DNA from: a virus
IMG/VR virus record: IMGVR_UViG_3300032323_001273
Span: 1-29,817 of that record
Length of the DNA stretch: 29,817 nt
Strand: one strand, 5' to 3'
The translations under genes were made by a program, and so were the position numbers. Positions 2,150-17,523 of the stretch are shown here, one piece after another. Within the stretch, counting starts at the first letter, position 1. The number at the start of each line of letters is the position of its first letter. A model generated the notes under the pieces. It was given only the letters and a program-made list of their open reading frames with translations, ran no database searches and was not told the origin of the DNA.

Positions 2150-2443
2150 CTACTCATGCACGCCATTGATTGCGGCTAATTCGTGGCTAATGTCTGCAAT
2201 CTCGTTTTGCAGCCTAGCGTTTGGCTCGGCGTGAGCGGTCAAGTCCTCGATAACCGAGAGCGCCCGGTACACCAAGCGAAACGCAACTTCACCGTCAGCC
2301 GGGCTAAGTGCGCACATCAGGCAAGGACGTGCTGCCTGGCTGCGAAGTTCGGCTCGAAGCGTCTCACTTGTCTGTTTTTCGCGTTCCAGTCGTTCCCCCA
2401 AATCTTGAACAAGTGCGTAAATGTTGGATGGGTCAATGGACAT
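2150..2443 (-). CDS. Small coiled-coil protein, function unknown
   Basis: I chose MSIDPSNIYALVQDL at 2443, giving 97 residues, because this leaves a 31-base gap after the initiator gene, whereas the 2518 start would run back inside that gene. The leader is A/C-rich (CCGACTACAGACC). The protein is helical, with a coiled coil at about residues 18-40 and a CLMC cysteine pair near the middle (residues 42-45). It lies directly downstream of the replication initiator and upstream of thyX. No family was recognised. Confidence 0.6.
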   Translation of the reverse strand: MSIDPSNIYALVQDLGERLEREKQTSETLRAELRSQAARPCLMCALSPADGEVAFRLVYRALSVIEDLTAHAEPNARLQNEIADISHELAAINGVHE

Positions 2444-2474
2444 GGTCTGTAGTCGGTTCGGGTTGGTCTGAGGT

Positions 2475-3134
2475 TTAGTCAAAATCTTCTGCACTTTGAG
2501 CTGCCTTTTGCTCGGCAATGATTCGGTCAGTCTCTTCGGCCTGAGCCCAGGCAGTGCGTAGCCATTGCTGGTCGCGTTCGGAAAGATGAGAAATATCTGG
2601 CTGCTGTTTTTTCAAGACGCTGCCGCGCCTCAAGCGCGAGCAAGCGGACTCAGTTTCTTCTTTCTCTGTTACTCCCGCTGCCGCTTGCGGCGGCGCGGAG
2701 TAACTGTTCTCTTTCTCTTTAAAGCGTCCAAACTGTGTACTCACGTGCCGTCCATGTGGTGTACTCACGTGCCGTTCATCTGGTGTACTGCCGCGTCCAT
2801 GTGGTGGACTGTTAATCGAGGTCAAAAAAAAGGCATTTCGGGTTGCCCGATGTGCTCCATTTGAGCCCGAAAACTTGCGGATTAAGCCCGCTTTTTCGAG
2901 AGCATCAAGTGCCGTTTTTACGGTCCCGCGAGAGCATCCTACGTGCTCGGCTAGCTGCTCATATGACGCAGAAAAACGTCTTTTGTGTTCGCTCGCTGCT
3001 GCACTTTGAAAATGTGTAAGTGCACAATAAATCGCATATGCGTTAATGCCTAACTTGCCAGCTTCAACGGCAGCTTCGCGGGTCTGCCAGGCAAAAGGGC
3101 CTTCATCTTTTGGGTTCTCAGAGCGTGGTTTCAT
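2475..3134 (-). CDS. Winged-helix replication initiator candidate
   Basis: Residues about 30-95 form a winged helix-turn-helix (SYEQLAEHVGCSRGTVKTAL, then LEKAGLIRK), like phage replication or transcription proteins. The middle (about residues 107-137) is a hydrophilic linker of roughly 8-residue repeats of the type STPHGRHV, encoded by tandem DNA repeats that look like iterons. The C-terminus is charged and could bind a partner, as lambda O binds its helicase loader. The gene overlaps the upstream helicase gene by four bases (3131-3134). Place in the operon, domain order and embedded repeats all parallel lambda O. The function is inferred; no experimental homologue is claimed. Confidence 0.65.
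   Translation of the reverse strand: MKPRSENPKDEGPFAWQTREAAVEAGKLGINAYAIYCALTHFQSAAASEHKRRFSASYEQLAEHVGCSRGTVKTALDALEKAGLIRKFSGSNGAHRATRNAFFLTSINSPPHGRGSTPDERHVSTPHGRHVSTQFGRFKEKENSYSAPPQAAAGVTEKEETESACSRLRRGSVLKKQQPDISHLSERDQQWLRTAWAQAEETDRIIAEQKAAQSAEDFD
2724..2813. repeat. Four iteron-like tandem repeats, candidate origin
   Basis: Four adjacent copies of 21-24 bases begin at 2724, 2747, 2771 and 2793. The shared core is GTCCATGTGGTGTACT, and copies 1 and 2 also carry TCACGT. They sit in the middle of the initiator gene. Just beyond the last copy is an A-rich tract (CAAAAAAAAGGCATTT, from about 2823). Repeated initiator sites beside an A/T-rich melting segment, inside the initiator gene, is the design of the lambda origin. 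Confidence 0.65.
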
Positions 3135-4456
3135 TTGCGTTTTTTAGGTTCCTCTGGTGGTTCTGGTTCTGGGCACATTTGCCAAATCATCCCATGCTTT
3201 TCTTGGTTTGGACTGTGTCGGATGAAGATTCGTGCGCTTGGCTTTCCATCCCAACTTTGCATTCCAGCCCGCAGTCTGCGCTTAGTTGCAGTCAGTGAAC
3301 ATGTAGGCGGTTCTCCGGGTTGAGTCTCTACACGCTGCAAAGTGACAACCTCGCGTGCCCAGTTTGTCAGTGCGCTCGATCCAAACCCAGCATATGCCAA
3401 ATCAGAGTCAGTGCGGGCAGTGCCTTCCCTAGGCTTTGGCAAATGATGGATGAGCACTAAAAGCACCCCGGTTTTACTGCTGATTCTGTTCAGCCCGTTG
3501 CAAAACTCTGTAACTACTTTCTGGTCTGAAATATCGTCGCCAAGGTAGCACATCAGAGGGTCAATCCATGCAACATCTGGCCGATGCCGCACCACTAACG
3601 CTTCGAGAACGCGGAGAAACTCTGAGCCCGAATGCACGTTGTCTCTGTAAAAAACTAGCCGCTCGTTGAGTGTGGCCTTTTCTTGTTCGCCGCAATCTGT
3701 GCTCCCGTATTTACAGATCACGCTTTGCAGGATTTCGGCCTGATCTCCAATGTCGTTCTCGGCTTGCAGAATTAGGCTTTTGAGAGCTTTCACCGGCTTG
3801 ATGCCAAAGGTGAGCACGTCAGAAAAGGTGCCACTGCCCAGCGCCCAGCCGATTGCCAGTTGCATGGTCAATGAGCTTTTGCCGATGCCGCTCTGAGCGT
3901 TGATGAGCAGACTGCCACCTTTGCAAAGCCACCGATTGCCGATCAGGCTGTTTCTATCGCACTTTGTATCATAGTTCAGCAGGTCATTGAACGGGGTCTG
4001 TACTATAGAATCAAGCCCCTGCTCGGCGCCCGCTACCGTCACGGCATCGCTAAGTTCGGCCACGATGTCACCAGTCGGAGCTCCTTCACCAAGTGCCTTT
4101 GCTGCCTCTCTGAGTTGCGTCAGTAACTTCCGGCGTCTTGCGGCATCCTGTACCAGCCCGCACCAGCTCGGGAGCGGTTCGAGGCTTGGCATCCCGGTGG
4201 ACAATTCCGAAATGGTCGCAAAAGGAATGCCCTGGTGCGCTAGTTGAGTTGCTAGCGAAAGCGGGTCAAGACTCTGCCCAGCATCTGCTGCGGCTTGAAT
4301 GCCCGCAAAGATGGTCGCAAAGCTAGGGTTGAAAAAGTCCCCAGCGGTCAGCCCAGATGCGACAACTGCGGGAAATGCGGTGTGTGGGGCAAATAAAAGA
4401 CAGCCCAGCACCGCCCGCTCGGCTTGTTCAGCCTGCGGGATCGTTTGTACGCTCAT
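3131..4456 (-). CDS. Replicative DNA helicase (DnaB N-domain plus RepA-like ATPase)
   Basis: The 441-residue protein starts with a DnaB-type N-terminal domain (about residues 5-125: QAERAVLGCLL, then FFNPSFATIFAGI). A RecA-fold ATPase domain follows. Walker A is AQSGIGKSS at 187-195, Walker B is VAWIDP at 295-300, and the sensor-like segment LLVLIHHLPK is at 332-341. This resembles hexameric RepA/DnaB helicases that unwind the fork. The last 12 residues are Pro/Glu then Lys-rich. It lies between a 70-residue small gene (three-base gap) and the initiator gene (four-base overlap), consistent with a replication operon. Confidence 0.85.
   Translation of the reverse strand: MSVQTIPQAEQAERAVLGCLLFAPHTAFPAVVASGLTAGDFFNPSFATIFAGIQAAADAGQSLDPLSLATQLAHQGIPFATISELSTGMPSLEPLPSWCGLVQDAARRRKLLTQLREAAKALGEGAPTGDIVAELSDAVTVAGAEQGLDSIVQTPFNDLLNYDTKCDRNSLIGNRWLCKGGSLLINAQSGIGKSSLTMQLAIGWALGSGTFSDVLTFGIKPVKALKSLILQAENDIGDQAEILQSVICKYGSTDCGEQEKATLNERLVFYRDNVHSGSEFLRVLEALVVRHRPDVAWIDPLMCYLGDDISDQKVVTEFCNGLNRISSKTGVLLVLIHHLPKPREGTARTDSDLAYAGFGSSALTNWAREVVTLQRVETQPGEPPTCSLTATKRRLRAGMQSWDGKPSARIFIRHSPNQEKHGMIWQMCPEPEPPEEPKKRK

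Positions 4457-15798: not shown

Positions 15799-17523
<1,725 letters not shown>

Follow-up and report, generated by a model that had tools for sequence, protein, structure and literature searches.

In the phage lambda record, four iterons are located inside gene O at 39034, 39054, 39078, and 39101 (codons 117–145, spacing 20/24/23), followed on the 3' side by A-rich DNA and then by the inverted repeat ATTCGTCAGA-GAAT-TCTGGCGAAT. Lambda O is dimeric, and the lambda iteron is an inverted repeat of imperfect symmetry (PMC7466680). PMC4488673 cites O/ori pairs that are type-specific among the lambdoid phages and shows that ectopic ori copies arrest lambda. The P22 record carries a rep_origin annotated in gene 18, beside the DnaB-like gene 12. 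In the plasmid pPR9, an HTH_36 (PF13730) DNA-binding N-terminus was exchanged on a conserved C-terminus, and the origin lies within rep (PMC5703833). In the Vibrio satellite PLE, the RepA DNA-binding domain covaries with an iteron origin and is exchanged along with it; cognate specificity was shown experimentally, and an origin-directed nuclease is the likely selective force for the exchange (PMC8263062).

We analysed a window of viral DNA, the whole 29,817-base stretch of IMG/VR record IMGVR_UViG_3300032323_001273, in which the original prediction had placed a lambda-style origin inside an initiator gene, with tandem repeats in the linker of a winged-helix protein beside a DnaB-type helicase gene. 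These repeats were confirmed at 2725–2741, 2749–2765, 2773–2789, and 2794–2810 (spacing 24, 24, and 21 on the plus strand), and the helicase gene adjoins the initiator gene (Table 1). The array occupies codons 109–137 of the initiator ORF, on the minus strand, inside a linker predicted to be disordered. On the coding strand each repeat was an interrupted 15-bp dyad, GTNCA-N5-TGNAC, within AGTACACCACATGGACG-like units, and the dyad starts were 21/24/24 bp apart. GTNCAN5TGNAC had exactly four matches in the window, all within the array, compared with 0.39 expected, and none of 100 shuffles reached four or more.

Table 1. Features of the candidate origin and its neighbouring helicase gene, in window coordinates.
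Feature	Coordinates	Strand	Basis or sequence
O-like replication initiator gene, 219 aa: winged helix, disordered linker, C-terminal helix	2475..3134	-	HTH_36, PHROG, AlphaFold2
Recognition helix, residues 69–81, RGTVKTALDALEK, type A	2892..2930	-	AlphaFold2 helix; helix/half-site correlation
T8 run, coding strand, 5' of the iterons (A-tract of the original prediction)	2824..2831	-	codons kept
Iteron 1	2795..2809	-	GTCCA-ccaca-TGGAC
Iteron 2	2774..2788	-	GTACA-ccaga-TGAAC
Iteron 3	2750..2764	-	GTACA-ccaca-TGGAC
Iteron 4	2726..2740	-	GTACA-cagtt-TGGAC
A-rich tract between iteron 4 and H1, 70% A+T; candidate DNA-unwinding element	2705..2724	-	duplex stability
Inverted repeat H1, 37 nt; missed by the original prediction	2668..2704	-	compensatory changes
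Inverted repeat H2, second, conserved	2613..2652	-	compensatory changes in relatives
DnaB-type helicase gene, 4-bp overlap with initiator start	3131..4456	-	DnaB N-terminal 1.9e-11, AAA_25 1.6e-18, phrog_19

The initiator matched HTH_36 in Pfam at 1.8e-7, and in PHROG it matched family 270 (replication initiation) at 1.5e-13 and the O-like family 678 at 7e-8. In the AlphaFold2 model, residues 8–104 formed the winged helix and residues 186–216 the C-terminal helix; residues 108–176, which hold the iterons, had pLDDT values below 50. Phage_rep_O (PF04492), matched by lambda O at 5.7e-36 in the positive control, gave no match in the relatives L019, L077, and L101 at E ≤ 1 and was absent among the best 25 of the 33 Pfam families listed for the window initiator; the PHROG O-like profiles do match the family, weakly. 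RepA_N (PF06970) was absent from the complete Pfam lists of the same three relatives; for the window initiator, it did not appear among the best 25 of 33 families. The best Foldseek matches in the PDB were weak and generic winged-helix proteins, with plasmid RepA initiators among them (5kbj, 4pt7), and a PDB search by sequence gave nothing significant. The protein would work like lambda O or P22 gp18, without belonging strictly to Phage_rep_O.

The lambda-type intragenic architecture was present in its full order, with dyad iterons in the linker, an easily melted AT-rich segment, and an inverted repeat beyond, which supports the original prediction of a lambda-style origin. Both origins have four dyad iterons directly after the winged helix, spaced 20/24/23 in lambda and 21/24/24 here, then A-rich DNA on the 3' side of the coding strand and an inverted repeat. 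They differ in iteron sequence, in the shorter AT-rich segment here, and in the initiator, which is not in PF04492. Moreover, this phage has its own DnaB-type helicase, whose gene precedes the initiator, and no P-like gene was seen next door. P22 genes 18-12 are likewise annotated with an origin in an O-like gene and have an adjoining DnaB-like helicase gene, but the gene order is reversed. RepA_N initiators (pSK41) and pPR9 Rep share the winged-helix N-terminus and an ori central within rep; however, they belong to plasmids and have a DnaG-binding C-terminal domain, and no RepA_N match appeared among the families listed here. PLE differs in that its origin is outside repA, it has two types compared with seven here, and it is a satellite and not a phage.

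Three scans of uncultured-virus contigs yielded 48 relatives whose gene could be read; together with the window, these make 49 loci with 44 distinct genes. All relatives came from one collection of uncultured viruses. A search of isolated phages found no relatives, and genome contigs gave short HTH matches only.

As the original prediction noted, the iterons encode a peptide repeat, although its unit is 7/8/8 residues and not uniformly eight. Selection on this linker peptide, with the DNA repeats as a by-product, would fit the single reading register of all iterons. However, the peptides were wholly unlike between iteron types (STPHGRHV, NAPQARLV, KPSQGHDV, RDYKSTLP) while dyad geometry and spacing were kept, and the linker is predicted to be disordered. 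When 16 representatives were recoded synonymously with the window's codon usage, dyad pairs fell to 143 ± 6.5 compared with 268 in the real sequences; none of 2000 recodings was as high, and the codon null was rejected in 16/16 representatives. Among the 23 distinct type A copies, wobble bases 3, 6, 12, and 15 were invariant while the central codons varied (PH, PD, RG, QF, NG, CG, and others). Since recoding destroys the dyads, and the wobble bases stay fixed at places where the amino acids differ, selection acts on the DNA, and a protein-level origin of the repeats is extremely improbable. The DNA cores are indeed more alike than the peptide requires, as had been predicted, and the proposed comparison of synonymous positions in relatives gave the opposite of scrambled codons, with half-sites kept at wobble positions while amino acids change.

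Mean synonymous codon identity across relatives was 0.53 for codons 2–97 and 0.85 for codons 98–148, a measure in which highly variable columns draw same-residue pairs from closer relatives and inflate the constraint. At codons 102, 104, 107, 115, 123, 131, and 147, nearly all pairs were used and were still 87–100% identical. Both the T8 run and the GGC and GTG codons of the spacers fall under this constraint.

The recognition-helix cores of the 49 loci could be sorted into seven types; every type had a half-site of its own, in one fixed geometry (15 bp with a 5-bp centre). Helices RG..KT, QR..CR, KN..AR, RG..RI, ER..AR, TK..QR, and RA..AR (types A to G) were paired with half-sites GTNCA, RCGCC, NACCC, GGTCA, NTGMC, RGGAC, and GTMTC, respectively. 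The table of helix type against dyad pattern had no off-diagonal site in any iteron block of the 49 loci; the half-site consensus patterns were drawn up after viewing the sequences, a bias which the fixed register and a Mantel test on raw sequence limit but do not remove. The 21/24/24 spacing was present in nearly all loci. Five iteron copies were found in L016, L073, L074, and L076, and three in L109 (two from the site search and one degenerate copy visible in its DNA); the site search overlooked the third copy of L023 and, in some loci of type C, a degenerate fourth copy. Within this set of only seven types, Arg69 was present in every type whose outer G is fixed or nearly so and in no other, and Arg74 likewise marked the types with an inner C.

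Iteron distance tracked helix distance (r = 0.85), and a partial Mantel test of iteron on helix distance, given the flanks (N-terminal and tail distances), resulted in r = 0.85 with p ≤ 0.0005. On the helicase tree, at least 20 type changes were required, compared with a mean of 22.2 for shuffled labels, and the starred branches alone forced 12 changes for type A. Type switching thus appears to be as frequent as random reassignment relative to the adjacent helicase. That helix and iteron types stayed strictly paired through at least 20 switches argues strongly, on comparative grounds, for binding of the repeats by the initiator.

Three pairs of loci of different type (L009/L019, L003/L017, and L075/L077) were 90–100% alike over much of both sides, and identity dropped to ~50–75% across gene nt ~200–400, which covers the helix and the iterons; in L003/L017 and L075/L077 the dip started earlier, near nt 50. 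Because the loss of identity is confined to the stretch with helix and iterons, these two are swapped as a single cassette. H1 is independent of specificity type, as L003 (type A) and L017 (type C) have exactly the same H1, and the exchanged cassette therefore ends before H1. Recognition helix and iterons would in this manner be inherited and exchanged as one specificity cassette of ~200 nt. We tentatively read at least seven helix/iteron types, circulating as this cassette, as an origin-specificity polymorphism under diversifying selection, with the helix/half-site set as a natural recognition code; on the comparative evidence, this joint reading has somewhat less than an even chance of being right. 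Escape from origin decoys, from origin-directed nucleases, or from cross-binding by co-infecting relatives is perhaps the driver of the switching. Four samples were noted to contain two contigs, and in three of them the two were of different type.

The 20-nt A-rich tract directly 3' of the last iteron was at the median 1.3rd percentile of duplex stability within ~3.7 kb over the 49 loci, with a weaker signal, up to the 16th percentile, in some loci of types A, B, and C. The original prediction had an A-rich tract following the iterons, but the tract it named is the T8 run, which is on the 5' side of the coding strand. An A/T-rich segment as in lambda is present, at a different place from the tract first named. 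The T8 run is probably not an unwinding element, as the 5' side was at the 13.5th percentile of stability compared with the 1.3rd for the 3' side. Its codons 102–104 (TTT/TTT/TTG) occurred in nearly all relatives and were identical in 95–99% of same-residue pairs, and it may be a bending tract or a spacer. A terminator at the T8 run was also considered and rejected: the two terminator-like matches were within the number expected from shuffles, and the small stem before T8 looked, by eye, not to be kept in relatives.

In most loci, 20–21 nt separated H1 from the final iteron; in a few, the spacing was different or the final copy had been missed. In 20 distinct versions of H1, all 8 outer pairs had changed on both sides and 97.5% of cells paired, with a covariation of 0.917 vs 0.265. 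Synonymous recoding weakened H1 in the measured representatives (in L013 and L021 the second hairpin was scored instead). H1 had no one-sided (G-T) pairs, whereas H2 does have them; the missing G-T intermediates of H1 suggest, without proving, a DNA rather than an RNA structure. A search of Rfam at the hairpins gave chance-level matches only. Located inside the initiator gene, H1 and H2 are likely part of the origin.

Each of the four dyads is itself an inverted repeat, and with true structure-type hairpins downstream in H1 and H2, the dyads might act as RNA or single-stranded DNA hairpins instead of duplex binding sites. However, the third arm position of type A was unpaired in 60 of 73 copies (A-G 42, A-A 16, C-A 2), which speaks against iterons as hairpins, while the other four pairs were perfect; it is the arm sequence, not mere pairing, that is fixed per helix type. 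H1 showed the opposite pattern, with the arm sequence free and the pairing kept. A hairpin role of the dyads is accordingly very unlikely. A somewhat less remote alternative, still improbable, is that the dyads are operators at which the winged-helix protein acts as a transcription factor and shuts down an antisense transcript or the operon that encodes it, with replication starting elsewhere. The fold is common to MarR/CodY/Crp-type regulators, and autoregulation sites within the gene would give identical helix-site covariation. Against operators, replication initiators were the best PHROG matches, and the sites are in the middle of the gene; the window has no further site, and the loci have few outside the array. 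Furthermore, 2400–3200 contained no promoter-like sequence, and the A-rich tract and compensatory inverted repeats keep the order of lambda's origin.

The array is, with high probability on this comparative evidence, the core of a phage replication origin inside the initiator gene, with O-some-like assembly and adjacent melting. Each 15-bp dyad would be read by a winged-helix dimer whose two recognition helices take one half-site apiece, and four bound dimers at 21/24/24-bp spacing would give an O-some-like complex. This complex may then melt the adjacent A-rich tract on the 3' side of the coding strand, where the phage's own DnaB-type helicase, encoded by the neighbouring gene, would be loaded. 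As the strands part, H1 and H2 would probably fold as DNA hairpins or cruciforms and may help loading or priming.

Such a mechanism is already known; the novelty lies in this family of phages, the series of seven types, and the rate of switching. A probable origin is hereby defined from sequence alone for a whole group of uncultured phages. The seven naturally matched helix/half-site pairs are carried on an otherwise similar protein backbone, so that both the evolution of origin specificity and the winged-helix DNA-reading code can be tested directly. Diversifying selection on origin type, if real, would be a sign that phage origins are the target of competition or defence not yet seen.

A GC-skew inflection near 2.8 kb, which the original prediction proposed as a check, was not found in the window, an absence that carries little weight in a 30-kb fragment where nearly all likely genes share one orientation. 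The helicase gene was upstream of the initiator in 49/49 loci, and beyond it profile matches of Pfam/PHROG type showed RecT-like, RusA-like, exonuclease, and methyltransferase genes. Downstream of the initiator, a flavin-dependent thymidylate synthase (ThyX) is encoded at 1444–2079 on the minus strand (Thy1, 4e-52). A collagen-like GATGATG-repeat protein of 574 aa with many tandem DNA repeats, probably tail-fibre-like, is encoded at 15799–17523, also on the minus strand.

Some relatives had additional genes between the helicase and initiator genes. An extra ORF of ~182 aa (MNYTKIGALPTHRYIWVDS...) was observed in L009, L012, L016, L024, L073, L075, and L077, sometimes with one further gene beside it (L016, L073), and similar gap lengths occurred in L008, L010, L074, L078, and L079. 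The PCQPF motif of the gene inserted in L002 and L023 suggested, on sequence inspection only, a C5-cytosine DNA methyltransferase. L013 and L018, which differ in origin type (A and B), shared at the same place a 202-aa ORF that was nearly identical between them and, by eye, might be acetyltransferase-like.
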